47,846 bases of DNA from Bacteroidales bacterium (GTDB lineage: Bacteria; Bacteroidota; Bacteroidia; Bacteroidales; UBA10428), in the NCBI GenBank assembly GCA_016936215.1, contig JAFGPL010000232.1:1-47846 (forward strand), written 5' to 3'. Shown here piece by piece: positions 17,253 to 33,268 of this stretch; within the stretch, counting starts at the first letter, position 1; every line of letters starts with the position of its first letter. The position numbers and the translations under genes are program-made. Below the pieces are notes generated by a model that worked only from the letters and a program-made list of their open reading frames with translations, was not told the origin of the DNA and searched no databases.

Positions 17253-17285
17253 AAACTTTGCATTTTTGCCATGCAAAGTTTTTTT
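17253..17285 (+). terminator. Intrinsic terminator overlapping the start of the next gene
   Basis: An eleven-base-pair perfect stem, AAACTTTGCAT (17253-17263) with ATGCAAAGTTT (17271-17281), a seven-base loop and an uninterrupted T run to 17285. The right arm contains an in-frame ATG of the downstream gene. Confidence 0.75.
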
Positions 17286-17738
17286 ATGCCCTCAAAAACT
17301 GAAAAATACGGCCGTATTTGCCTTCAATTGGAGCAATTGCTGGTAAAATCTAATGACCCGCTGGCAAGGATGGCTTCAATTAATGCTATTTTGTACCATA
17401 AAATGCAGAATTTTTTCTGGGTAGGTTTTTATTTATTAAACCAGGACAGGCTGATAGTTGGACCTTACCAGGGGCCTGTTGCCTGCATGGAACTTGCCAA
17501 AAATAAGGGAGTATGCTGGCATTCCGTTAATACACAAGAAACCGTTATTGTACCTAATGTAAATAAATTTCCCGGGCACATTGCCTGTGACTCACGCTCA
17601 AAATCAGAAATTGCTGTACCATTGTTCAATGCCAAAGGCCAAATTGCCGGCGTTATGGATATTGACAGTAACAAACCTGATTTTTTTGACCGTACAGATG
17701 CAGATTTTCTTGAAAAGATTGTAAAATTGATTTATTAA
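17286..17738 (+). CDS. Free methionine-(R)-sulfoxide reductase, GAF-domain (fRMsr/YebR family)
   Basis: A 150-residue single GAF domain. All three family cysteines are present in GPVACMEL, KGVCWHSV and FPGHIACDSRSKSE; they reduce free Met-R-sulfoxide with thioredoxin. The frame also has an ATG at 17271, but that codon lies in the terminator stem, so the ATG at 17286 is preferred. TTTG at 17232-17235 and AAACTTTG at 17253-17260 (17-base spacer) may be the promoter, overlapping the terminator hairpin. In that case the leader is very short. The enzyme assignment is strong; the start is inferred. Confidence 0.88.
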   Translation: MPSKTEKYGRICLQLEQLLVKSNDPLARMASINAILYHKMQNFFWVGFYLLNQDRLIVGPYQGPVACMELAKNKGVCWHSVNTQETVIVPNVNKFPGHIACDSRSKSEIAVPLFNAKGQIAGVMDIDSNKPDFFDRTDADFLEKIVKLIY

Positions 17739-17749
17739 CCTTGCAAATT

Positions 17750-18121
17750 TCAGGCTTTAATAAAACTTTCAAGTAGTACAGTTATTTTGTGTATTGAATA
17801 CGGCTTTGTAAGTAACTGGTCGAAACCCACGTCCCTGTAATCATCGAAAAAAATTTTCGGGTTATGCGCGGTAAGAGCTACAATAGGAATTTTACATTTG
17901 GGTTCCGGCAATTTCTCCCTGATATACCTGGTAGCTTCAAGGCCGTTCATAACAGGCATTTCAATATCCATTAGAATCAGGTCAATATCATGGTTATTTT
18001 TAAGAAGTTCAACAGCCACTTTGCCATTCTCTGCTTCAAGATGTTCATGACCGAGATCGGCAATAATTTCAGATAATAGCAACCTGTTTGTAAAGATATC
18101 ATCTGTGATAATAATTTTCAT
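17750..18121 (-). CDS. Stand-alone response-regulator receiver (REC) protein
   Basis: A 123-residue receiver with no output domain. Seen: the acidic pair in IITDD, phosphoacceptor Asp in LILMDIEMPVMNG, Thr in VALTAHN and Lys in LTKPY. The sequence resembles receivers attached to hybrid kinases rather than CheY. It lies 27 bases downstream of the Crp/Fnr gene in the same direction, so the two probably form an operon and the regulator may respond to this receiver or the shared stimulus. Convergent with the fRMsr gene, 11 bases apart. Confidence 0.9.
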   Translation of the reverse strand: MKIIITDDIFTNRLLLSEIIADLGHEHLEAENGKVAVELLKNNHDIDLILMDIEMPVMNGLEATRYIREKLPEPKCKIPIVALTAHNPKIFFDDYRDVGFDQLLTKPYSIHKITVLLESFIKA

Positions 18122-18148: not shown

Positions 18149-18832
18149 TCAGCCTAAATTGCTAAGTGTTTTTATAATTTTTATACTGTTTATGGTAACT
18201 TCAGAACCATTTAATTGAATGATCTTGTCGTTCTTAAACTCAGCCAGCGTCCTGATAAAACTTTCTTTTGTAGTGCCGGCAAGTTCTGCCAGTTCCCTTC
18301 GTGTAAACGGAAATTCGAAAGTTTGACTTTTATATATTGTTTCCGCAAAATAAAGGATTACGTCTGCAATCCTTCCCGGCAGTTGTTTATGCGACTGGCT
18401 CATCAATCGGTCAAAAATATATATACCATATATGCTGAGAATATTGATTATTTTCATGGCAAAGTCACCATTTTCTTTTACAAAACCCAGAAAAGTCTGC
18501 AGGTCTATAAAACACACTTCAACAGAATCGATGGCAGAGGCAGAGTACTGGTGCATATCGCTGCCGAAAATTGACATCAGACCGAGATACTCTCCTGGTA
18601 TGGCAATTTTTAGAATGATGAATTTATTGTTCCTTCCTTCTTTATATATTTTAACATATCCGCTTTTCACAAACATGATATGCGAAGTACGGGTGTTTTG
18701 CCTGAAAATATTTTCACGCTTGTTATAGGTAACGATATTACTGTTTTTCTGAAATATTTCAATTTCCTTGCCTGTGAGGCAACTCCCAAATGGGATTAAG
18801 GTTTCTTTATCATTGTTTTGATAAATTGTCAT
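18149..18832 (-). CDS. Crp/Fnr family transcription regulator
   Basis: A 227-residue regulator: cyclic-nucleotide-binding-type beta roll at about 15-125 (VTYNKRENIFRQ, MFVKSGYVKIYKEG, PGEYLGLMSIFG), dimer helix, and a winged helix at about 155-225. The recognition helix reads TTKESFIRTLAEF; Glu and Arg fall where E209 and R213 lie in E. coli FNR and contact the GA of the half site. No FNR-like N-terminal cysteine cluster is present, so it is not an Fe-S oxygen sensor of the classical type. A TGATTTATATCA palindrome lies 76-87 bases upstream, suggesting autoregulation. Targets and ligand are inferred. Confidence 0.9.
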   Translation of the reverse strand: MTIYQNNDKETLIPFGSCLTGKEIEIFQKNSNIVTYNKRENIFRQNTRTSHIMFVKSGYVKIYKEGRNNKFIILKIAIPGEYLGLMSIFGSDMHQYSASAIDSVEVCFIDLQTFLGFVKENGDFAMKIINILSIYGIYIFDRLMSQSHKQLPGRIADVILYFAETIYKSQTFEFPFTRRELAELAGTTKESFIRTLAEFKNDKIIQLNGSEVTINSIKIIKTLSNLG

Positions 18833-19058: not shown

Positions 19059-19445
19059 ATGAAAGCATCTAATGAGATAAATATTCTTGTGGTAGACGAC
19101 TCAACCACTAACGTTGTCCTGCTCGAGGCCATACTCGATGAAAAAGGTTACCGAATACACACAGCACTTAACGCCAAAGAAGCCTATTCGATTATTGCAA
19201 AACATAAACCCGATCTAATTTTACTCGATCTGCTTATGCCCAAGATCAGCGGATTTGATTTCTTAAAGGAGATCAAGAAAAACAATGTTACCAAAGACAC
19301 CCCTGTAATTATTGTTTCTGCGCTTACCGATGAAGACAATATAGACAAAATCCTGCAAATGGGTGCGATTGATTTCGTGAAAAAACCAATTGATTTACAA
19401 TATCTTGTAAACAAGGTCGAATCGGTTTTGCATCCCAACAGTTAA
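19059..19445 (+). CDS. Stand-alone response-regulator receiver protein
   Basis: A 128-residue single receiver domain: ILVVDDSTTN at the N-terminus, phosphoacceptor Asp in LILLDLLMPKISG, Thr/Ser in VIIVSALTD and Lys in FVKKPID. No output domain. Divergent from the Crp/Fnr gene across about 226 bases that contain the TGAT-N4-ATCA site. A MITE lies directly downstream. It probably belongs to the signalling island, accepting phosphate from CheA or a kinase encoded elsewhere. Confidence 0.92.
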   Translation: MKASNEINILVVDDSTTNVVLLEAILDEKGYRIHTALNAKEAYSIIAKHKPDLILLDLLMPKISGFDFLKEIKKNNVTKDTPVIIVSALTDEDNIDKILQMGAIDFVKKPIDLQYLVNKVESVLHPNS

Positions 19446-19636: not shown

Positions 19637-19753
19637 TATTCCATCCGTTAATCAACTAATATTCTTATTTGGTCAATCCTTTTGCCGGATTCCCTGAAGA
19701 AACCGAACAATATCAGCCGGTTATCGTTTATTTTAATAAACAGGGATGAGGAA

Positions 19754-20143
19754 ATGAAGAGAATTTTAATTGTTGATGACAACCTGATGATGCGCAAGCT
19801 GATCAGGAACATTTTTGCAGATCACGATTTTGAAATAGAAGAAGCCGAAGACGGTCTTGAAGGCCTTGAAATAGTGAGAAAAATTGATATAGACCTTGTA
19901 ATTACAGATATTATCATGCCCAAAATGGAGGGGCTGGAACTAATTATGAACATAAAACGCGATTTCCCGAATATAAAAATCATAGCCATTTCAGGCGGTA
20001 AACCTTATTATCTATATATGGCAAAAAAACTCGGTATTGAAAAGATATTTACTAAACCCCTGAATATTCAGGATTTTTTAACTGCTGTAAAAAAACTCAT
20101 ACAGTTTCCAAGAAACATCAAATCTTCAACATTTTCTGCATAA
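19754..20143 (+). CDS. Stand-alone response-regulator receiver protein
   Basis: A 129-residue receiver domain starting at MKRILIVDDN; the open frame extends back to 19682, but those 24 residues do not belong to the fold and the ATG at 19754 is preceded by GAGGAA. Phosphoacceptor Asp in LVITDIIMPKMEG, Ser in IIAISGG, Lys in FTKPLN. A Phe/Ser-rich tail of 15 residues follows. Separate from the che operon by 400 bases and a terminator, so expressed on its own. Confidence 0.9.
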   Translation: MKRILIVDDNLMMRKLIRNIFADHDFEIEEAEDGLEGLEIVRKIDIDLVITDIIMPKMEGLELIMNIKRDFPNIKIIAISGGKPYYLYMAKKLGIEKIFTKPLNIQDFLTAVKKLIQFPRNIKSSTFSA

Positions 20144-20544: not shown

Positions 20545-22356
20545 ATGACATCAGACAGAAATGATAATAAAATAAAAGCTAAAGAATTACTTGAAGCCTT
20601 TACTGTTGATACGATCGTTGATCATATTACGGATATTAATAATAGAATTAACACGCTTATAAATTGCTCCTCTGAAGATTTTCTAAACCTGCATTCAAAC
20701 TTCATTAAAGCGCATGAGAATATAAAGCGTGTCGTTAATGATGTCTCTGAAATTCTTCAATCCTTTTCTGAAGAAGACAACATAATGTTTATTAATGCGT
20801 GTGATGATGTTACAAACAAATTCAGGACAGGTATAAAAAAAATTATAAAAAGTATTCAGGACAGCCATGATTGCCAGGAAGAAATATCTCGAACCCTTGA
20901 TTACCTGTATATTCCCATTAACAATTATAACCAGAACCTTAAGACCTACAAGCTTATTTCAGCCAACCTGAAACTTGATTCCAATACCATTAAATATTCA
21001 AACGAGATTAATTCCATCATTGAAGATATTATTGAGAAATACCCCGATGTAGTAAAAAACCTGAATAGCCTTAGAAAGCTTTTGAATGGGCCGGATAAAA
21101 CAGAAGAACAATTTGATCCTGAAGTTTTCAGATCGGTTTTTGAAACACTGGACCATATCCAGAACTTCGGACAATACATATTGCGCAAACACCACCAGTC
21201 TATTAAACTGAAGCAACAACTGCAGGTAAAAATCAACATGAGCAATGAAAGCGCCTCAAAGATTATTACTCATCTGCAATACCAGGATATAGTAAGGCAA
21301 AAAATTGAGCACATCCACCAAACCCACCAAGAGATACTTGAGAAATTATCGGGACTGATGGAGAATGAGAGCCACCCTGACTTTATTCTCTCAAAAGCAA
21401 AGCTGCTTATTCAGATTAGGGATATTACAGGACTTCAGGCTGCGCAACTTATTCACGCCAATTCTGAATACCAGAATGCGATAGAAGTTATTACCTCAAG
21501 ATTTATCGGGCTGGGTGAAATTCTGCATGACATTGTTGCCATCTGTACACAGTTTTGTGTTGCTGAAAAATCTGAAAAAGAGCATATAAATCATCCTGAA
21601 AAAATTGCAGAAGAATCATCATCGCTCCTTAAAAGTCTTGAATTATTTAACGATACATTTCTCGAAAAACCCGAATCGGTTAATAAAAGCATCCATAGGT
21701 TCTCAGAAAAATACACCAACCTTAAAAACACCGGCATTCAATTTAATCAACTGGTAAACAAAGTTATGCAAAATGCTTCTCACGCGAATGCCGGTATATT
21801 GGGGCAAATGAACGAGATTTCTGCAGAATTTCTTAAAACCCTTAACCAGGTTGCTGCCTATATCGCAAAAACAACCGAATACTCAGATAAACTCGGGAAA
21901 ATAATTGATGAGGACCTGGCTGGTGAGGCCCTCGAAAAAGAAGTTATTTCTCAATGCAGACGTTTAATATCCATCACAGATGAGTTTAACAGAAAAAAAT
22001 CCACTATCTTTAATAAGTTAAATTCACAGTTTAACCAGTTTTTAGTTTCCGGTGACATCAAAGAATCTATAGAGAGTATTAAATATTATGAGCTGTTTGA
22101 GAAAGAGATTGAAACCATCATCCTTAATCTCGATAATATATCCAAAAAGCTGCACATCGAAGAAGAATTCCTAAATAATGACGATGATGAAACGCTTGAA
22201 TCGCTGAAAAAAAGATATACTGTAAAAAGTGAATTTATTGTACATGAACGAATTTCGAACGAGGCTCAAAAAGGAAAGACGGAACTTTTTGACAAAGACC
22301 AGCGGATAATACCAGATGAAACAGATGAAGAAGATGAAAATCTTGAACTTTTTTAA
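20545..22356 (+). CDS. Long helical protein with a CheZ-type motif, first gene of the che operon
   Basis: A 603-residue soluble, almost all-helical protein with no membrane segment. Around residues 243-260 it reads LQYQDIVRQKIEHI, which aligns with the CheZ active-site helix (QDFQDLTGQVIKRM in E. coli). D248 and Q252 occupy the places of CheZ D143 and Q147, which dephosphorylate CheY-P. The last 20 residues are acidic (DETDEEDENLELF), like the CheY-docking tail of CheZ. No methyl-accepting receptor hairpin tip (ALNAAIEAARAGE type) is present. The STAS gene follows after nine bases. A CheY phosphatase or large adaptor is inferred; the length far exceeds CheZ (about 214). Confidence 0.65.
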   Translation: MTSDRNDNKIKAKELLEAFTVDTIVDHITDINNRINTLINCSSEDFLNLHSNFIKAHENIKRVVNDVSEILQSFSEEDNIMFINACDDVTNKFRTGIKKIIKSIQDSHDCQEEISRTLDYLYIPINNYNQNLKTYKLISANLKLDSNTIKYSNEINSIIEDIIEKYPDVVKNLNSLRKLLNGPDKTEEQFDPEVFRSVFETLDHIQNFGQYILRKHHQSIKLKQQLQVKINMSNESASKIITHLQYQDIVRQKIEHIHQTHQEILEKLSGLMENESHPDFILSKAKLLIQIRDITGLQAAQLIHANSEYQNAIEVITSRFIGLGEILHDIVAICTQFCVAEKSEKEHINHPEKIAEESSSLLKSLELFNDTFLEKPESVNKSIHRFSEKYTNLKNTGIQFNQLVNKVMQNASHANAGILGQMNEISAEFLKTLNQVAAYIAKTTEYSDKLGKIIDEDLAGEALEKEVISQCRRLISITDEFNRKKSTIFNKLNSQFNQFLVSGDIKESIESIKYYELFEKEIETIILNLDNISKKLHIEEEFLNNDDDETLESLKKRYTVKSEFIVHERISNEAQKGKTELFDKDQRIIPDETDEEDENLELF

Positions 22357-22365
22357 CCCATTGCA

Positions 22366-22680
22366 ATGGCAAAAAAAACTGAAAAAAAACCAAAAGAGAA
22401 CAGCACTTTATTTGAAATAAAGGACGGGATTACCATTTCAAATGTAAGCGACATAAGAAAAAAAATGCTCAAGTATATTGAGGGCAGCAAAACGCTGCGG
22501 GTAAAAATAGACAAAACCGAGCAACTCGACCTTTCCGGTATACAGTTACTTTATTCATTGCAGAAATCATGCATTCAACAGGGGAAAAAAATCCAATTTG
22601 ATATAAACCTGGCAGAAGAAACAATGGAACTATTGAAAAATTCAGGTTTTAACAACATAAAAGAACTAGATGTACAGTAA
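22366..22680 (+). CDS. STAS-domain protein (anti-sigma-antagonist-like)
   Basis: A 104-residue single STAS domain. A Lys-rich N-terminus is followed by ITISNVSDIRKKML and the signature DLSGIQLLYSL, where Ser57 occupies the place phosphorylated in SpoIIAA-type antagonists. No kinase of the SpoIIAB/RsbW type is encoded nearby. The gene sits between the CheZ-like protein and CheY with 9- and 23-base gaps, so it is part of the operon. It may bridge the chemosensory pathway to a partner-switching output, which is inference. Confidence 0.87.
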   Translation: MAKKTEKKPKENSTLFEIKDGITISNVSDIRKKMLKYIEGSKTLRVKIDKTEQLDLSGIQLLYSLQKSCIQQGKKIQFDINLAEETMELLKNSGFNNIKELDVQ

Positions 22681-22703
22681 TTTAAAGTAAATACCCAACC
22701 ATT

Positions 22704-23069
22704 ATGACAAAAACAATACTTTTTGTAGATGACTCTGAAAGTATTCGTGAAATCGTAAATTTCACATTACAAAATGAAGGTTACAACGTACTGGTAAGTG
22801 ATAACGGGAAGAATGCACTTAGCCTTCTTGATGGAAAAGACATCAATCTTATTATTACCGACCTTCACATGCCCGAAATGAATGGCATTGAATTGATAAA
22901 AGAAGTAAGAAAAATGCCTCATTATCAGCGCACACCTATTCTTTTTCTCACCACTGAGTCACAGGTGGCAAAAAAAATGGAAGCCAAAGAAGCCGGTGCC
23001 ACAGGATGGATTGTTAAACCCTTTGTACCTGCTAAACTCATTTCCGCGATAACCAAAGTGATAAGATAA
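22704..23069 (+). CDS. cheY: Chemotaxis response regulator CheY
   Basis: A 121-residue CheY-type receiver: ILFVDDSES, phosphoacceptor Asp in LIITDLHMPEMNG, Thr in LFLTTES and Lys in IVKPFVP. The pattern GATGWIVKPF is that of true CheY rather than hybrid-kinase receivers. The stop overlaps the cheA start by one base, so translation is probably coupled and CheY is the direct phosphate acceptor from CheA. What it acts on (motor or other output) cannot be told from this window; no flagellar or gliding genes are present. Confidence 0.95.
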   Translation: MTKTILFVDDSESIREIVNFTLQNEGYNVLVSDNGKNALSLLDGKDINLIITDLHMPEMNGIELIKEVRKMPHYQRTPILFLTTESQVAKKMEAKEAGATGWIVKPFVPAKLISAITKVIR

Positions 23070-25129
23070 TGGACAAGCTGAGGCAAAAGTTTATAGAAGA
23101 AGCATCTGAGCATATCAGGGATATTGAACAATCGTTATTAACCCTTGAAAGCAATCCGGATAACCACGAGCTAATTGAAAAGATTTTCAGGTCATTGCAC
23201 ACACTTAAAGGTTCAGGGGCCATGTTCGGATTTGAAAAAATAAGCGAATTTACTCACGAGCTTGAAACTATTTACGACCTGATCAGAAATAATAAACTAA
23301 TATTAGGCAAAGAAGTATTTGACCTTACCCTCGCCTGTGCAGACCATTTAAAAATATTGATTAGCGATGAAAAGAAAGATAATGCTGAAATAAATGAAGA
23401 GTATCGGAATCTGCTCGAAAAAATACACGAGGTTTATAGCGGGGAAAGCATGCCTGGAAAACCTTCTGCAAATCAGAAAGATAAAAAAACCGCAGATACC
23501 GGTTCAGACCTGAGCACCTATTACATATACTTTAAGCCCAATGCTGACATATTTGACAACGGCACCAATCCGCTTTTTTTGATTGACGAGCTTACTTCCC
23601 TGGGCCATTTTATGGCAATACCTTACCTTCAGGATATTCCTGAAATTGAAACTATAGAACCATACAGATGTTATACTCATTGGGAAGTTATTTTTGCCAC
23701 ATCTGAATCATCGGACACTCTAAACGAAATATTTCTTTTTGTAGAGGATAACTGTGTGCTCGACATCCAGAAACTTGCAAATGGCAATCTTGTTGACAAC
23801 AAGAAATTTGTTAAAAGAATAGAAAAACTTAAAGAAACGGGTAAAGACATTGGGATTGATGCCCTGAAAATCATTTCAGAAGACCTGGAGCAATCTGTTG
23901 CTTCTAAAGTAAAAAAAGCCCTGGGAGATGAATTCAGGACTTCATTCAGAGATTACACCATATCAAGCATCAGGGTTGCATCAGAAAAGCTGGACCACCT
24001 TATGAACCTTGTAAGTGAACTTGTTACCACCCAGGCAAGGCTTTCACTGTATTCAGAAAACGATTCCTCATCTGAGCTAACAGCAATCTCGGAGAACATA
24101 CAAAAGCTCTCACGCCAGCTTCGTGACCTCGCCTTTGAGATAGTGCTGGTTCCAATAGACACCTTGATTACCAGGTTTCAGAGGCTCGTGCGTGATTTAT
24201 CCAAAGAACTGGGAAAAGAGGTTAGTTTTATTGCCAAAGGTACCGAAACAGAACTCGATAAAACAATAATCGAAAACCTTACAGACCCTTTGATGCACAT
24301 TATCCGAAACTGCATTGACCACGGGATTGAAACCACTGAAGAACGCCTGAAAAAAGGTAAACCTGAACAGGGCACTATTTTACTTAACGCCTATCATTCA
24401 AGCACCAATGTGCATATTGAAATATCGGATGACGGCAAAGGTATTGATGCTGAAAAAGTAAGGAAGAAAGCTGTAGCCAAAGGTTTGATCACAGAAGATA
24501 ACTATCTGACAGAAAAACAGATATATGAGCTATTGTTCCTTCCCGGATTTTCCACTGCAGAACATGTAACCGATGTTTCAGGCAGGGGAGTAGGAATGGA
24601 TGTGGTAAAGCAAAAAATCACCAACATAAGGGGAGAAATTGAAATTGAGTCGTCAAAAAATGCGGGCACTAAACTTACACTTAAAGTACCCCTGACTCTT
24701 TCAATTATTGATGGTTTACTCGTTAGGGTTGAAGATATTTTTTACTTGATACCGTTATCTGCTGTCGAAAAAATTTATGCCATAAACCACGAAGATATTG
24801 ACGGGAAATTCAACAACCTGATCGTGCTTGGTGGAGAGCGTATACCCTATTTCTATCTCAGAAAAGAATTTAACCTCGAAGCCGATAACAATATAAATGA
24901 CCAGGTAATTGTCATAAAATATGAAACTCAAAAGGTAGGCTTAGTGGTAGACGAGGTTATCGGTGAGTACCAGGCTGTTTTAAAACCCCTGGGAAGGCAT
25001 TATAAAAACCAGGAGATTATCTCGGCAGCAACCATTCTTGGAGATGGCACCATCGCACTTGTAATTGATGTTAACAGGGCGGTAAATCATTTTGCAAACA
25101 TAATAACACATATGGAGGAAAAAATATGA
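23069..25129 (+). CDS. cheA: Chemotaxis histidine kinase CheA
   Basis: A 686-residue kinase with the full CheA layout. P1 histidine-phosphotransfer domain at 1-105 with His44 in LHTLKGSG; a P2-like region at about 150-240; P3 dimerisation helices at about 290-345 (VASEKLDHLMNLVSELVTTQ); P4 ATPase at about 345-540 with N-box HIIRNCIDHGIE, G1 DDGKGID and G2 GRGVGMDVV; P5 CheW-like domain from about 545. All catalytic motifs are intact, so this is the only kinase in the island with a phosphorylatable histidine seen here. Overlaps cheY by one base and cheW by four. Confidence 0.97.
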   Translation: MDKLRQKFIEEASEHIRDIEQSLLTLESNPDNHELIEKIFRSLHTLKGSGAMFGFEKISEFTHELETIYDLIRNNKLILGKEVFDLTLACADHLKILISDEKKDNAEINEEYRNLLEKIHEVYSGESMPGKPSANQKDKKTADTGSDLSTYYIYFKPNADIFDNGTNPLFLIDELTSLGHFMAIPYLQDIPEIETIEPYRCYTHWEVIFATSESSDTLNEIFLFVEDNCVLDIQKLANGNLVDNKKFVKRIEKLKETGKDIGIDALKIISEDLEQSVASKVKKALGDEFRTSFRDYTISSIRVASEKLDHLMNLVSELVTTQARLSLYSENDSSSELTAISENIQKLSRQLRDLAFEIVLVPIDTLITRFQRLVRDLSKELGKEVSFIAKGTETELDKTIIENLTDPLMHIIRNCIDHGIETTEERLKKGKPEQGTILLNAYHSSTNVHIEISDDGKGIDAEKVRKKAVAKGLITEDNYLTEKQIYELLFLPGFSTAEHVTDVSGRGVGMDVVKQKITNIRGEIEIESSKNAGTKLTLKVPLTLSIIDGLLVRVEDIFYLIPLSAVEKIYAINHEDIDGKFNNLIVLGGERIPYFYLRKEFNLEADNNINDQVIVIKYETQKVGLVVDEVIGEYQAVLKPLGRHYKNQEIISAATILGDGTIALVIDVNRAVNHFANIITHMEEKI

Positions 25130-25641
25130 ACAATGAGGTTAATACCCAGGTAAAATCTTACCTCACATTTAAACTTGGGGATGAGGTTTTTGCAGCCAAT
25201 GTTTCAAAAGTTCTGAATATTCTGGAACTAACAAAAATAACCAAAGTACCCAAAGCCCCTGCATACATGAAAGGGGTAATCAATTTAAGGGGAAGTGTCC
25301 TGCCTCTTATTGACACAAGGATAAAATTCGGAATGTCGGAAACAGAGTTCACCAACAATACCTGCATTCTTGTGCTCGATATTATTTTAAGCGGTGAATC
25401 GGTAAGAATTGGTGCATTGGTAGATGCAGTGCATGAAGTACTTGAAATTGATGACAGTCAAATCTTACCTCCACCAAGTCTTGGAAGTAAATATAAATCT
25501 GAATTCATTGACGGAATGGTTAAACTGGGAGAAGAGTTTATCATGCTCCTGAATGTTGAATTAATTTTTTCAACAGATGATATTTTAAACCTTAAAGAGG
25601 TAACCGGCGAAGTAAAACAAAAGTTTGGCGATGCCGGATGA
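25126..25641 (+). CDS. cheW: Chemotaxis coupling protein CheW
   Basis: A 171-residue single CheW domain: SYLTFKLGDEVFAANVSKVL, KVPKAPAYMKGVINLRGSVL and LPLIDTRIKFGM, the classical family pattern. CheW normally joins CheA to receptors; here no receptor is encoded, so the partner must lie elsewhere or be one of the non-canonical sensors. Overlaps cheA by ATGA. A short hairpin with T6 follows before cheR. Confidence 0.97.
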   Translation: MNNEVNTQVKSYLTFKLGDEVFAANVSKVLNILELTKITKVPKAPAYMKGVINLRGSVLPLIDTRIKFGMSETEFTNNTCILVLDIILSGESVRIGALVDAVHEVLEIDDSQILPPPSLGSKYKSEFIDGMVKLGEEFIMLLNVELIFSTDDILNLKEVTGEVKQKFGDAG

Positions 25642-25660
25642 CAACAGGCTTTAAACGTTG

Positions 25661-25690
25661 CCGTATAATGGTTTGTGCATACGGTTTTTT
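25661..25690 (+). terminator. Candidate internal terminator between cheW and cheR
   Basis: Stem CCGTAT/ATACGG (25661-25666 and 25679-25684), twelve-base loop, then TTTTTT. The stem is only six pairs, so readthrough is likely and it may act as an attenuator for the adaptation genes. Confidence 0.4.
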
Positions 25691-25734
25691 CGCGTTCAAC
25701 TTTTTTGAGTAGTAACTGAAAACTATCCCTGTTA

Positions 25735-26607
25735 ATGGAACCTGAGATTGAAAAAATCAAATCCGGATATTCAGATTATTTCCTGGCACGTTTGTCAGAC
25801 AGGGAATTTGACAAACTTAGCGGTTACATTATGCAGGAATACGGCATCAAAATGCCCCCTGTAAAAAAGGTAATGCTCCAGAGCAGATTGCAAAAAAGGC
25901 TGAAAGAGCTTAACATGGTTTCATTCAAAGAATACATTGATTATGTTTTCAGCCAGAAAGGACAGCAGGAAGAGGTAATACATATGATGGATGTAGTAAG
26001 TACGAATAAAACCGACTTCTTCAGGGAACCCATCCACTTTGAAATACTCTCATCGCATGTACTGCCCGAATTTTATGATTCCCGCGGCAATAATACATTC
26101 AGGATATGGAGTGCAGGTTGTTCAAGTGGCGAAGAACCCTATACAATAGCCATATCACTTGCCGAGTTCGCAGAAAGAAACCCGGGTTTCGATTACTCAA
26201 TCTATGCCACCGACATTTCGACGAAAATGTTAAAAGTAGCTATTGATGCAATATACAAGGAAGATAAGATTGAAATAATCCCGATGGTAGTTAAAAAAAA
26301 ATATTTCCTGAGGAGCAAAAACAGGGAAGAAAAAAAAGTAAGGATAATACCCGGTTTACGTAAGAAAGTTTTTTTTGAAAGGCTAAACCTCATCAGCGAC
26401 AGGTACAATACCCCTGACACCTACGATGTGGTATTCTGCCGTAATGTGTTAATATATTTTGACCGCGAAGTGCAACAGGATATTCTCTCAAAAATATGCA
26501 CAAGGCTAAAAAGAAACGGCTATTTGTTCCTGGGCCACTCGGAATCAATCACGGGCTTAGACCTGCCTCTTAAACATTTGCAGCCCACCGTGTTTAAAAG
26601 ACTTTGA
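25735..26607 (+). CDS. cheR: Chemotaxis methyltransferase CheR
   Basis: A 290-residue SAM-dependent glutamate methyltransferase. N-terminal helical domain at 1-95, then SAM-binding motif WSAGCSSGEEPYTIA at about 126, YATDIS, and FCRNVLIYFD in the C-terminal part, ending with FLGHSES. It methylates receptor glutamates during adaptation. No methyl-accepting protein is present in the window, so its substrate is an open question. It follows cheW after 93 bases. Confidence 0.96.
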   Translation: MEPEIEKIKSGYSDYFLARLSDREFDKLSGYIMQEYGIKMPPVKKVMLQSRLQKRLKELNMVSFKEYIDYVFSQKGQQEEVIHMMDVVSTNKTDFFREPIHFEILSSHVLPEFYDSRGNNTFRIWSAGCSSGEEPYTIAISLAEFAERNPGFDYSIYATDISTKMLKVAIDAIYKEDKIEIIPMVVKKKYFLRSKNREEKKVRIIPGLRKKVFFERLNLISDRYNTPDTYDVVFCRNVLIYFDREVQQDILSKICTRLKRNGYLFLGHSESITGLDLPLKHLQPTVFKRL

Positions 26608-26634
26608 AATAAAGATTGTAAACAATATAAAACT

Positions 26635-27522
26635 ATGATTAGACTATCTGACGAAGACCTGATCAATGAACTGAAAAAAAGGTTTGAGGAGAATAAAAAA
26701 AATCTTGATGAGCTAACCAGGCTGAACAAAATTCTTACAAAGGTAAACAACAGACTTTCGGAAGCCGAGGCCATGAAGAGTCATTTTATCTCCAATATCA
26801 GCAACGAGATTATTAATCCTTTTACATCCATACTGGCTTTATCGAAGACCATTCTCGAATCGAGTAAAGAGAGTTGGAAACAGGTAATTTCAATGGTTGC
26901 ACTCATACATTCCGAAACCTTTAACCTTGATTTTCAATTCGCGAATATTTTTGCGGCAGCCAAACTCGAGGCGGGTGAAATAATGCCCGAAATATCAAAA
27001 ATTGATGTCTGCGGACTTATCAAAGATGTAATTGATTCATTTAAATATGAAGCCAAAAAGAAAAACCTGAAAATCCTTATAAATAGCGAACCGGTTTCAA
27101 AAATACAATCCGGATTGTTTTTTGTATCTGATTATCTAAAAATTAAACTAATTCTTGCCAATCTTTTAAGCAATGCTGTGAAATTTAGTTTTACCGAAGG
27201 GGTGATTGAACTGGAATATAAACTTGAAAATGGCTCTCTGATTCTAAGTTTACAGGATCACGGACAGGGAATTTCACCCGAAAATCATGACATTATTTTT
27301 GACAGGTTTCAAAAACTCGACTCCGGGATTAATTCATTTAACAGGGGACATGGCCTGGGACTATCGGTTATCAAAGCTTTTACAGACCTGCTCGGAGGTG
27401 AAATATCCCTAAAAAGCCTTCCCGGGAAAGGGGCAAGGTTTATTGTTATCCTTCCTGAATCACAAGGCGATATTGAGGGCATCACCTTTAATGGAAATGA
27501 ATTATTGTTCGATGAAGAATAG
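26635..27522 (+). CDS. Histidine-kinase-like protein lacking the phosphoacceptor histidine
   Basis: A 295-residue cytoplasmic protein with an N-terminal coiled coil (10-45), a HisKA-like dimerisation segment (45-115) and an HATPase_c domain (about 160-275) with N-box NLLSNAVKFS, G1 DHGQGI, F-box FDRF and G2 GHGLGLSV. The H-box reads FISNISNEIINP where kinases have SHE: residue 57 is Asn (AAC), one base from His (CAC). It cannot autophosphorylate in the usual way. It has no sensor domain. It lies between cheR and cheD with 27- and 6-base gaps, so it belongs to the operon. ATP binding looks intact; it may act as an ATP-dependent scaffold, transfer phosphate from CheA, or act as a phosphatase. 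Confidence 0.9.
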   Translation: MIRLSDEDLINELKKRFEENKKNLDELTRLNKILTKVNNRLSEAEAMKSHFISNISNEIINPFTSILALSKTILESSKESWKQVISMVALIHSETFNLDFQFANIFAAAKLEAGEIMPEISKIDVCGLIKDVIDSFKYEAKKKNLKILINSEPVSKIQSGLFFVSDYLKIKLILANLLSNAVKFSFTEGVIELEYKLENGSLILSLQDHGQGISPENHDIIFDRFQKLDSGINSFNRGHGLGLSVIKAFTDLLGGEISLKSLPGKGARFIVILPESQGDIEGITFNGNELLFDEE

Positions 27523-27528
27523 GAGAAT

Positions 27529-29119
<1,591 letters not shown>

Positions 29120-29277: not shown

Positions 29278-31566
29278 ATGGATACGATAAACCAAAGATC
29301 ATTTGTAGTTCAAAATACAATTTATGCATTTGTGCTTTCTTTGTTCTTTCCCTTGCTGGGCATTTCAATTGACCTGATCAACAGCAACGACATGCAGTTT
29401 ACCCTGGAAGGGATAAGAACAGTTTATTCCCAAAATCCGCTGCACTGGATAATTCTTCTGGCAATTATCGTATTGCCATTGGTTTCCTATTATTTCTCAA
29501 ATAAATACATCAGGGATATTGCCAGTAAACAGTCGCACCTTGACCTTCTTTCAGGCAAGATGAACAAAATAAACCATTTTACCCAAAAACTTATTGAAGA
29601 CGACTTTACACAAGCATTTGATATTGAAGGAAATGAAGATTCCCTAGGTAAATCGCTTATTAACCTGAGGGATACCCTTAAAAAAAATAAAGAAGCACAG
29701 GAAAAACGCAGGCAGGAAGATGAGCAACGAAACTGGATTGCCGAAGGGCTTGCCCGGTTTGGAGACATACTCAGGACCAATAACGATAACATGGAACAGC
29801 TCTCTTTTATGGTTGTCAAAGAGCTGGTAAAATACATCAATGCCATTCAGGGATCGTTTTATATGCTTAATAATGACGACCCCAACAACGTTTTTTTCGA
29901 TCAGACTGCACTTTTTGCCTATGACAGAAAAAAGTTCACAGATAAAAAAATAAAATGGGGCGACGGTTTGGTCGGCACTTGCGCACTGGAACGTCAGCCT
30001 ATTTATATGACAAAGATTCCCGAATCTTATGTAAACATTACATCGGGTTTGGGAAAGAGCAACCCTAAATGTTTGCTTCTTTTACCACTGATTTATGAGA
30101 ACGAACTCTATGGCGTAATTGAATTCGCATCATATAATGCTCTTAGCCAGCATGAACTGAATTTTGCAGAAAGAGTTGCAGAGAGCATCGCGGCCACTAT
30201 TGCTTCTGTACGGATAAATGTGCGCACTGCCAAGCTGCTCGAAGACTCGCGCGAACGCACGCAGGCAATGTCCGCCCAGGAAGAAGAGATGAGGCAAAAT
30301 ATGGAAGAGCTTCAGGCTACACAGGAAGAGTTGGCAAGACAGGCAGACAAATTCGTGAAGCTTGAAAATACCGTTAACCACACTATGATAAGGGCAGACT
30401 ATGCGGTTGACGGGACTTTGCTTTATGCCAATACCAAATTCTTAAAAAAACTTGAATACAATAAAAATGAAGAGGTAGAAGGCAAACATATCTCATTATT
30501 TATAGGCGAAAAAGATAAAGAATGGTTCACTCAGTTATGGGATGATCTGGCAAGTGGCGGCAGGCACTATGAAGGGTATATGAAGCACATTACCAAAAAT
30601 GGTAAAGACCTTTGGACAATGGCTACTTACACCTGCATCAGGGGAGAAAACGATGCGGTAGAAAAAATACTTTTCCTTGCCATAGATACCACCGAACATA
30701 AAAAACAAAGCCTCAGGCTTGAAAGTATCGTGGATGCAGTTGATAAATCAAGCATCAAGCTCGAAATGGGAAGCAATGGAAGCCTTATGGAATACAACGA
30801 CAATATGCTGTACCTGTTCGGTTATAACGAAAAAGATGCCAAAAACCTCACCATATTCGACCTTATAGACCCGCTTGAAATTGAAAATTTCAACAATAAA
30901 TGGGATACGGTGGTAAAAGGCATTGCATTTCACGGACAGTTTAAAATGAAATCGAAATCTGAAGACACCTTATGGCTAAGAGGTGCATTCAGCGCACTTT
31001 ATGACATGTACGGGGATGTTACCAGAATTGTATTTATCGGACATGATGCAACCAATGAGAAGCTGATGGATATTGAATTACGTCAACAAACCGATATTCT
31101 TAAAAAGCAGGAGAAAATGCTTCGCGAATCTGAAAGAGAACTAAGCAAGAAGTTACGCGAGGCAAGGATTGAAATGCAGAACCAGTATAAGGAAATAGAA
31201 AAAATTAAGCTAAGAAACGAAAGGACCCTTGAGGGTGCGCTTGATGCAATATTTACTATCGGGAACGACAATAAGATTATTTTCTTCAACAAAGCTGCTG
31301 AAGAACTCTGGGGTTATAGTAAAGAAGAAGTGACCGGACACGATGTAGCAATACTTTTCAGCGCTGCCATTATAGAAGAAGATGATTTTTTAATGAAAAT
31401 GGTTGAACCCGGCAGTAATAAAATTGTTGGCGTTCGAAAGGAAATAAAAATATTCTCCAAATCGGGCGAGGAAAAATCTGTACTTGTATTGTTATCCAAT
31501 GCCCAGGTTGAAAAGGAGAACACCTATACAGCATTTATACAGAATGTAGAAGTGGAACTTTTTTAG
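29278..31566 (+). CDS. Membrane GAF/PAS sensor protein without an output domain
   Basis: A 762-residue sensor. Two transmembrane segments (about 13-33 and 60-77) enclose a short external loop of about 25 residues. Then a HAMP-like helical stretch, a GAF domain (about 150-310), a Glu/Gln-rich coiled coil (about 325-365, with EEEMRQNMEELQATQEE), two PAS domains (about 365-600), another coiled coil, and a C-terminal PAS (about 650-758) ending in NVEVELF. No kinase, cyclase, MCP hairpin or DNA-binding domain. It lies 40 bases before the hybrid-kinase-like gene. A transducer for CheA or for the His-less partner is inferred. The C-terminal -ELF is shared with the 20545 product. Confidence 0.85.
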   Translation: MDTINQRSFVVQNTIYAFVLSLFFPLLGISIDLINSNDMQFTLEGIRTVYSQNPLHWIILLAIIVLPLVSYYFSNKYIRDIASKQSHLDLLSGKMNKINHFTQKLIEDDFTQAFDIEGNEDSLGKSLINLRDTLKKNKEAQEKRRQEDEQRNWIAEGLARFGDILRTNNDNMEQLSFMVVKELVKYINAIQGSFYMLNNDDPNNVFFDQTALFAYDRKKFTDKKIKWGDGLVGTCALERQPIYMTKIPESYVNITSGLGKSNPKCLLLLPLIYENELYGVIEFASYNALSQHELNFAERVAESIAATIASVRINVRTAKLLEDSRERTQAMSAQEEEMRQNMEELQATQEELARQADKFVKLENTVNHTMIRADYAVDGTLLYANTKFLKKLEYNKNEEVEGKHISLFIGEKDKEWFTQLWDDLASGGRHYEGYMKHITKNGKDLWTMATYTCIRGENDAVEKILFLAIDTTEHKKQSLRLESIVDAVDKSSIKLEMGSNGSLMEYNDNMLYLFGYNEKDAKNLTIFDLIDPLEIENFNNKWDTVVKGIAFHGQFKMKSKSEDTLWLRGAFSALYDMYGDVTRIVFIGHDATNEKLMDIELRQQTDILKKQEKMLRESERELSKKLREARIEMQNQYKEIEKIKLRNERTLEGALDAIFTIGNDNKIIFFNKAAEELWGYSKEEVTGHDVAILFSAAIIEEDDFLMKMVEPGSNKIVGVRKEIKIFSKSGEEKSVLVLLSNAQVEKENTYTAFIQNVEVELF

Positions 31567-31606: not shown

Positions 31607-33268
31607 ATGAGGTTTAATAAAAGAAAATCGGAGCTTAATTTACTTAGGGACAAGGTAGCCGAACTCGAAATGCTGAACAGGCAGCTTATGGAACAGGTAC
31701 ATGGTAAACCAATAATGAATGACATAACCGCATGGCATCAAAAATTCCAGGGCTATATTGCCGAAACCGAAAACATTGGCGCAGCCATATTTAATTCAGC
31801 TAACGGAACTATTGGACTATCGCCTGTAGCTCAAAGATATTTCGGGTTGAAAAGTGACACCCATGAACTTACCCTTGATGATATATTAACCTACATTTCA
31901 CCCGATGACAGGGCTGCATTTCAGAAAATCATCGAAGAATCGGTCAGGACAGAAAAAACTTCCGGCATCGAATATAAAATTGTAAGGTCGGAACAGGAGC
32001 GCGAAGTAAAATTTATTGCCTCAAAGTTTAAGTTGATTGAAAAAGATGGTGAAAATAAGCTGGTTTTGTTTACCCTCGTTGATATCACAAAGCATGAAAA
32101 AACCAGGAAAGAACTGGCACGTATCAAGGAAAAAGCTGAAGAATCGGAAAAATTCAGGAACATTTTTTTGTCGAATATATCCCGCGAAATACGCATTCCC
32201 ATGAACTCAATTATGGGATTTGCCGAATTGCTTAACATTGGCAATATCTCGCAGCAGGACAGGGACGAATACGTTAAAATCATCAAACAACAGAGCAACC
32301 TGTTATTTAAGCTCATTGACGATATTTCCGAGATGGCCCGTTTTGAATCGGGTGATGTTAAAGTAAACAAGTCAGTCTGTAACCTAAACCTTTTGCTTAA
32401 CGAAATACTCGGTACATTTAACCAGCAGAAAAAAGCTTATAAAAAAGAAAATCTTGAACTGAAAATAAATGTGCCTGCGGGAAAAGGGCTGATAAGTTAC
32501 ACCGATCCGGGCCGTTTACATCAGTTACTTTCGAACCTTATCGGAAATTCGATAAAATTTACCGAAAAAGGATTTATTGAGTTTGGTTATGCAAAAGAAG
32601 ACGAAAAAAGCATAAGGTTTTTTGTGAAAGACACTGGCATAGGATTAACCAGGGAAGAACAAAAACAGATATTTGACCGCTTTAGGTTACAGGAAGAGAC
32701 CGTTACGAAAAAATATGAAGGTTCCGGGTTAGGGTTATCTATAGCTAAAGGGATCGTGAAATTGCTGGGGGGAAGGATATGGATTGAATCTGAACCCGGA
32801 CAGGGTACCACCATTTTCTTTACCATAGAATATGAGGAGGTACCAAAAGAAAATATCCTTGAATTATCGGACAATGAAACAGTTCAGCATTCGGTAAGCT
32901 GGAAAGACAAACTGATATTGGTGGTGGAAGATGATGATGTAAATTACAAATTTATCGAAGCGGTACTTTTAGAAAACCAGGCACGGGTTATCAGGGCGCA
33001 AAATGGTTTGCAGGCAATAGAGCTCTGTAAATCAATTAATAAAATAGAGCTGATACTAATGGACATAAAAATGCCCGAAATGGATGGGTTTGAGGCCACC
33101 CGGCAGATCAAAGCCCTGAACAAGAATATACCGATTATCGCCCAAACGGCCTTTGCCATGCCCGAGGACCGAGAACGATGCCTGAGAGCTGGCTGCGATG
33201 ATCATATTGAAAAACCAATTGAAGTAGAAAACCTGCTTAACAAGATTAATAAGTTTTTCAACCGGTAG
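31607..33268 (+). CDS. Hybrid-kinase-like protein lacking the phosphoacceptor histidine
   Basis: A 553-residue cytoplasmic protein: N-terminal coiled coil, PAS-like domain (about 55-160), HisKA-like helices (180-250), HATPase_c (about 285-400) with N-box NLIGNSIKF, G1 DTGIGL and G2 GSGLGLSIA, then a receiver (about 430-550) with phosphoacceptor Asp in LILMDIKMPEMDG and Lys in IEKPIE. The H-box reads FLSNISREIRIPMNS where the family has SHEIRTP: residue 193 is Arg (CGC), one base from His (CAC). The ATPase and receiver look intact. It sits next to the output-less sensor, so the two may form a complex. Convergent with speA. Confidence 0.9.
   Translation: MRFNKRKSELNLLRDKVAELEMLNRQLMEQVHGKPIMNDITAWHQKFQGYIAETENIGAAIFNSANGTIGLSPVAQRYFGLKSDTHELTLDDILTYISPDDRAAFQKIIEESVRTEKTSGIEYKIVRSEQEREVKFIASKFKLIEKDGENKLVLFTLVDITKHEKTRKELARIKEKAEESEKFRNIFLSNISREIRIPMNSIMGFAELLNIGNISQQDRDEYVKIIKQQSNLLFKLIDDISEMARFESGDVKVNKSVCNLNLLLNEILGTFNQQKKAYKKENLELKINVPAGKGLISYTDPGRLHQLLSNLIGNSIKFTEKGFIEFGYAKEDEKSIRFFVKDTGIGLTREEQKQIFDRFRLQEETVTKKYEGSGLGLSIAKGIVKLLGGRIWIESEPGQGTTIFFTIEYEEVPKENILELSDNETVQHSVSWKDKLILVVEDDDVNYKFIEAVLLENQARVIRAQNGLQAIELCKSINKIELILMDIKMPEMDGFEATRQIKALNKNIPIIAQTAFAMPEDRERCLRAGCDDHIEKPIEVENLLNKINKFFNR

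Follow-up and report, generated by a model that had tools for sequence, protein, structure and literature searches.

The window is the whole stretch of DNA analysed here, 47,846 nucleotides of a Bacteroidales genome (G000, contig JAFGPL010000232.1). It carries the stand-alone receiver genes of a conserved module, a run of che genes and a membrane sensor gene followed by the gene of a hybrid kinase that lacks its phospho-acceptor histidine, termed HK1. A second His-less kinase, HK2, is encoded among the che genes. The genes are arranged as follows:

17271..17738, + strand: GAF protein, at the edge of the conserved module
17750..18121, - strand: REC123, stand-alone receiver of the conserved module
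18149..18832, - strand: Crp-family regulator of the conserved module
19059..19445, + strand: REC128, stand-alone receiver of the conserved module
19682..20143, + strand: REC153, stand-alone receiver of the conserved module, with a likely ATG start at 19754
20545..29119, + strand: che genes (603-aa ORF, STAS, CheY, CheA, CheW, CheR, HK2, CheD, CheB), between REC153 and the sensor gene
26635..27522, + strand: HK2, HisKA-HATPase without receiver, with Asn57 (codon AAC, 26803-26805) at the His position; outside the HK1 module
29278..31566, + strand: membrane GAF/PAS sensor that lacks a kinase domain; its gene immediately precedes that of HK1 in nearly all orthologous loci
31607..33268, + strand: HK1, 553 aa, hybrid kinase without phospho-acceptor His, in the order PAS-HisKA(DHp)-HATPase_c(CA)-receiver

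HK1 consists of four Pfam domains: PAS_3 (residues 71-153), HisKA (184-249), HATPase_c (300-409) and Response_reg (437-547). The HisKA domain remains recognisable, scoring 48.9 bits against PF00512 with a cut-off of 26.9. Its H-box reads FLSNISREIRIP. The elements of the gene that bear on catalysis are these:

32147..32362, + strand: DHp helices, residues 181-252, containing no His
32183..32185, + strand: Arg193, codon CGC, at the acceptor His position (HK853 residue 260 and DivL Tyr550 by structure alignment)
32195..32197, + strand: Ile197, codon ATT, at the position of the Thr in the HExxT phosphatase motif (HK853 T264); the congener G001 also has Ile, and all other orthologues have Thr
32504..32833, + strand: HATPase_c (CA) domain, residues 300-409, with canonical boxes; Asn314 codon at 32546-32548
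32915..33247, + strand: receiver, residues 437-547; codon of the phospho-acceptor Asp486 at 33062-33064

Aligned with the sequences of solved kinases, Arg193 falls on the His of SHE[IF]R. In the AlphaFold model of HK1 (mean pLDDT 85), Arg193 is located in the first DHp helix; residues 177-411 align with HK853 244-480, and residues 169-409 with DivL 526-756. This structural alignment pairs Arg193 with HK853 residue 260, the phospho-acceptor, and with DivL residue 550, the Tyr replacing His; the offset is taken from the ends of the aligned ranges and is identical in several rows. The loss of the His, proposed in a sequence-only reading of this DNA, is thereby confirmed, and the CGC codon is a single transition away from CAC. 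The same reading held that the ATPase and receiver look functional, and they do: the N, G1, F and G2 boxes are all canonical, including Asn314 of the N box, the residue that binds the ATP-Mg complex. In the receiver, D442, D443, D486, T514 and K536 are all present, and its C-terminal fusion makes HK1 a hybrid histidine kinase by architecture.

Two trivial explanations of Arg193 were considered and rejected. Replacement by a nearby histidine, which the sequence-only reading had recognised as evidence against its own proposal, is excluded by the DHp helices, which contain no His, and by the remaining histidines of the protein (32, 44, 86, 163, 305, 428 and 533), none of which is conserved. A sequencing or assembly error is excluded by G001, a different species of the same genus, whose orthologue is 58% identical and encodes the Arg by a different codon, AGA. 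HK1, as judged from its residues, cannot form phospho-His and probably does not autophosphorylate.

Both Arg193 and Ile197 are common to the two species, so that the Arg substitution is old and, to the extent that two genomes can tell, fixed in the genus, which is sampled by these two only; most genomes of the family are fragmented draft or metagenome assemblies. Identity between the two proteins reaches 70% in the DHp, 74% in the CA and 75% in the receiver, and drops to 18-39% in the coil, PAS and linker. The ratio of the CA rate to the receiver rate, estimated on a fixed tree, is 1.10 in the Arg genus, 1.17 in the intact g5 proteins and 2.91 in one Asn314-less g4 subgroup. Saturation of synonymous sites would be expected at 58% protein identity. 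The DHp, CA and receiver of the Arg proteins thus appear to be still constrained, and their ATPase domain is not evolving as if idle, which would accommodate an ATP-dependent conformational role within the genus.

Across 23 genomes of the family, 18 distinct HK1 orthologues are found. A scan of the whole collection returns only two close full-length matches (L011, L012), which agree with the G020 and G005 proteins in all the stretches compared. No orthologue is detected at E<=1e-45 in those genomes of other families that were searched, and a plasmid search yields only distant kinases, below 60% identity. Within this genome, one comparison is offered by a paralogous Bacteroidota HisKA hybrid kinase (G000:C218:49524-50699), 46% identical to HK1 over DHp-CA-REC and with the same domain order; unlike HK1, it has its His, in SHEIRTP, and its ATPase is canonical.

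The acceptor His is kept in 15 of the 18 orthologues and replaced by Arg in G000, G001 and G016. Retention of the His in orthologues had been put forward by the sequence-only reading as a point against its proposal; it applies to most orthologues and fails within the genus. In the tree, G016 is sister to the His-bearing G022 with a support of 100, and Arg therefore arose at least twice. The G016 protein lacks the PAS domain and its frame is open; its classification as a truncation or pseudogene was rejected, the apparent internal stop belonging to the upstream gene.

A second lesion affects the ATPase. Asn314 is lost in nine of the 18 orthologues: Thr takes its place in G002, His in G005/G018, and either His or Tyr in the six g4 genomes. 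In most of the nine the G boxes are damaged as well. Because the tree joins G002 to g4 with a support of no more than 40, the loss is counted as two or three events. None of 60 kinases retrieved from this genome has lost the Asn (9/18 vs 0/60; Fisher 3e-7, with relatedness ignored), and the only loss in 126 homologous regions of other genomes is that of an HK1 orthologue. The g4 orthologues have in addition lost the Glu after the His. Those proteins that bear the His and lack Asn314 keep the Thr of HExxT. None of the 18 orthologues has lost both His and Asn314, a pattern that is not significant given too few independent events. Six orthologues, all of g5 (G007, G012, G014, G020, G021, G022), have both residues and look catalytic; ancestral HK1 therefore probably had kinase activity, whose loss may reflect lineage and not the function of the family. 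Throughout, the receiver active site (Asp, Thr/Ser, Lys) is intact in 17 of the 17 orthologues that reach this domain. That kinase-dead orthologues keep their receiver suggests that HK1 is fed by another protein.

These lesions bear on three other accounts of HK1. The gene could be decaying, the kinase having become purposeless in several lineages and the HK1 domains looking intact only because the loss is recent. The several independent losses of catalytic residues are in keeping with decay, as is the g4 subclade whose CA evolves 2.9 times as fast as its receiver, but the frames are open in the orthologues found, the receiver residues are kept wherever they can be read, gene order is conserved, and the genus pair, 58% identical overall, rises to 70-75% in the DHp, CA and receiver. 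We regard decay as improbable.

The canonical CA boxes of both Arg genomes of the genus, together with a CA essentially no faster than the receiver, suggest that ATP binding matters, and raise the prospect that HK1 heterodimerises and its intact CA phosphorylates the His in the DHp of a partner kinase. Heterodimers of histidine kinases are known, ChrS/HrrS being a precedent (PMC9491836). Against such trans-phosphorylation, no partner kinase gene lies beside HK1 in the loci examined, and the Asn314-less orthologues outnumber the Arg ones, so that ATP use is not the shared function; this account is doubtful. The ATP-dependent switch of the sequence-only reading fares in the same two ways: it is possible within the genus, where the CA is not relaxed, and does not hold as the common function of a family in which half of the members have lost Asn314.

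HK1 could, thirdly, be a kinase-dead transmitter phosphatase dedicated to removing phosphate from a receiver. The His is not essential for the phosphatase activity of HisKA proteins (PMC12632262), and retention of the HExxT Thr in the His-bearing, Asn314-less orthologues, as in RetS, is consistent with such a role. In both species of the genus, however, this Thr is replaced by Ile197, and its loss abolishes the activity of RetS (PMC5992135); the g4 proteins for their part lack the Glu. A dedicated phosphatase is very improbable.

The missing His is rare. Among the kinases retrieved as similarity matches from this genome, the H-box can be read in 59 and has its His in 57; the two exceptions are HK1 and HK2, which are encoded within one stretch of ~7 kb. 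HisKA domains without His make up 0.9% of those surveyed (722/76,471; PMC12632262), a rate at which about 0.5 case would be expected among the 59, and two such kinases close together are unusual. The DNA pattern for N-I-S-[R/S]-E-I-R-x-P has matches in only three of 295 genomes of the order, and its His version about 70 matches in 60 genomes. The idea that the SRE H-box marks a widespread class was rejected, as one of the three matches (L225) showed no kinase and another (G264, L226) is a separate His-less kinase. The latter, from another family of the order, is a kinase-like protein of 289 aa that reads NISREIRTP, has a damaged G2 box (SSLGLS) and adjoins a His-bearing kinase; it is an independent case of His-to-Arg change. 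In a kinase of Aquimarina sp. 2201CG14-23 (L054), the corresponding stretch is NIPQEIRTP, with Gln at the acceptor position.

The surroundings of HK1 are conserved in two blocks. The first is the sensor-HK1 pair, to which G018 is an exception, the sensor gene being missing upstream of its HK1 orthologue. In the sensor (29278-31566), QEEEMRQN[ML]EEL is almost invariant among 14 orthologues. The second block is a module of a GAF protein, a receiver, the Crp-family regulator and one or two more receivers, present upstream in G000, G001, G002, G005, G022, G016 and g4. Both blocks are conserved with or without che genes, and it is the segment between them that varies. Nine genes including CheA occupy it in G000, che genes without CheA (CheY, CheW, CheR, CheD, CheB) in most g4 genomes, and the 603-aa ORF and CheR alone in G022 and G016; nothing is inserted there in G001, G002 and G019. 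In G002, the HK1 module and the che cluster lie far apart on the same contig. The che genes and the HK1 module are separable: HK1 belongs to an older sensor-receiver module, and the che genes are an insertion here.

The sequence-only reading proposed a scheme in which the phosphate comes from CheA. In this scheme, the HK1 receiver would obtain its phosphate from the CheA encoded in the island, with HK1 serving as an ATP-dependent relay in chemotaxis. CheA is indeed encoded 6.5 kb upstream on the same strand, the HK1 receiver is intact, and the g4 genomes likewise carry che genes at the HK1 locus. G001 speaks against it: this genome, 93% complete, has the Arg protein and the module, no che genes at the locus, and no CheA (E<=1e-40), MCP or CheA-sized Hpt frame, and CheA is therefore not required for HK1. 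The genes downstream of HK1 in G001, judged by eye, are not signalling genes by sequence. CheA is also not detected in G005, G016, G018, G021 and G022, all of which have HK1 orthologues. With orthologues in six genomes without detectable CheA, HK1 does not show the strict co-occurrence expected of a che component; it tracks the sensor and the REC module instead. CheA could still act on HK1 in G000, but the scheme as a whole is unlikely.

Several features of the che genes were recorded alongside. This genome has two CheA genes (G000:C272, and G000:C312 at 23069-25129 of the window), which share 43% identity where they match, and some six MCP matches, all located outside the window. The 603-aa ORF (20545-22356) has no family match above the cut-off and carries LQYQDIVRQKIEHI, whose D-x3-Q spacing is presumably that of the CheZ active site, making it a candidate remote CheZ-like phosphatase. 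In G022 and G016, which lack CheA and MCPs, the CheR gene and the 603-aa ORF adjoin the sensor gene, and CheR may methylate the sensor upstream of HK1 without CheA.

HK2 resembles HK1 in its HisKA-HATPase composition, its intact ATPase and its missing acceptor His; it differs in having no receiver and in always occurring with che genes. Asn is found at the acceptor position in all ten of its orthologues across genera, with N-E-x-x-N-P invariant and the ATPase boxes intact. In che clusters, HK2 adjoins CheD, usually lying between CheR and CheD, and every genome with HK2 also has CheA. Its history is separate from that of HK1, older, and tied to the che genes. The two losses in the island are thus independent, as had been claimed, involving different proteins, different residues and different ages. 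Having occurred in different modules and at different times, they are not evidence for the one shared scheme that had been read into them. The phosphatase motif of HK2 has the ExxN form (N-E-x-x-N-P in 10/10 orthologues), and this protein could plausibly serve the che cluster as its dedicated transmitter phosphatase.

The account we favour, and consider reasonably probable, is that HK1 of this genus is a hybrid pseudo-histidine kinase of the RetS/DivL kind, with a DHp-CA core that binds or senses and a receiver that obtains its phosphate from a different kinase. Input would come from the membrane GAF/PAS protein, itself without a kinase domain, whose gene immediately precedes that of HK1. The DHp-CA core, keeping the kinase fold, would act by binding; its partner on docking would be either another histidine kinase or a receiver in its phosphorylated state, for which REC128, REC153 and REC123 of the same module are candidates. 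On docking, the core would change shape, possibly with ATP bound, and the receiver, charged by the other kinase, would serve as a phosphate sink or switch. The lack of a partner kinase gene beside HK1 in the loci examined counts against this account as well, as do the six orthologues that look catalytic.

A broader proposition, extended to the family, is more tentative. This orthologous group of hybrid kinases, from one Bacteroidales family, may have dropped autophosphorylation on four or five occasions. It would have done so along two complementary routes, one sacrificing the acceptor His and retaining the ATPase, the other sacrificing the ATPase Asn and retaining the His. The reason would be that autophosphorylation was never needed for the actual task of the group, which is to carry a phosphate-accepting receiver on a DHp scaffold gated by a sensor.

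HK1 is a real, genus-conserved pseudo-histidine kinase of an already known kind, and the point of interest is its recurrent inactivation by two routes. Pseudo-histidine kinases are recognised and few are understood, the best-known cases being single proteins with one fixed lesion. Within the HK1 group, some proteins appear to be active, some lack the His and some lack the ATPase, all with conserved gene neighbours, and the group forms a natural series on the non-kinase roles of a sensor kinase. The locus also cautions against taking adjacency for partnership, the neighbouring che genes having been added to a module that exists without them.

Two known systems offer the closest comparisons. In DivL of Caulobacter crescentus, a His-less core reads a phosphorylated response regulator, its partner DivK~P (PMC4211667). 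HK1 shares with it the HisKA-HATPase fold, H, N, G1, F and G2 boxes that are otherwise kept, a PAS domain upstream and the site of substitution, DivL Tyr550 falling on Arg193; the HK1 model matches DivL with a Z of 23.8 and an rmsd of 3.4 over 224 residues. DivL, however, has no receiver, a substitution widely conserved across the alphaproteobacteria and a known partner, whereas HK1 is a hybrid whose substitution is Arg, confined to one genus and one other genome. A DivL orthologue would combine PAS-DHp-CA without receiver with Tyr at the site, a combination absent from HK1, which leaves the claim that HK1 works like DivL unaffected.

In RetS of Pseudomonas aeruginosa, a kinase-dead hybrid, the receiver takes phosphoryl groups from GacS, and this partner is inhibited (PMC5992135). 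The likeness to HK1 lies in a hybrid that is unable to autophosphorylate and yet has a working receiver, both properties being predicted for HK1 from its residues. RetS keeps its His and has lost its G-boxes, whereas HK1 of this genus has lost the His and the phosphatase Thr and kept the ATPase; RetS also carries a second receiver and combines the membrane sensor with the kinase in a single chain, whereas the presumed sensor of HK1 is encoded by the separate upstream gene. The RetS-type pattern, a degenerate HATPase with the His and HExxT Thr kept, is thus not that of HK1 itself and is instead the route common to its orthologues in g4, G002 and G005/G018.
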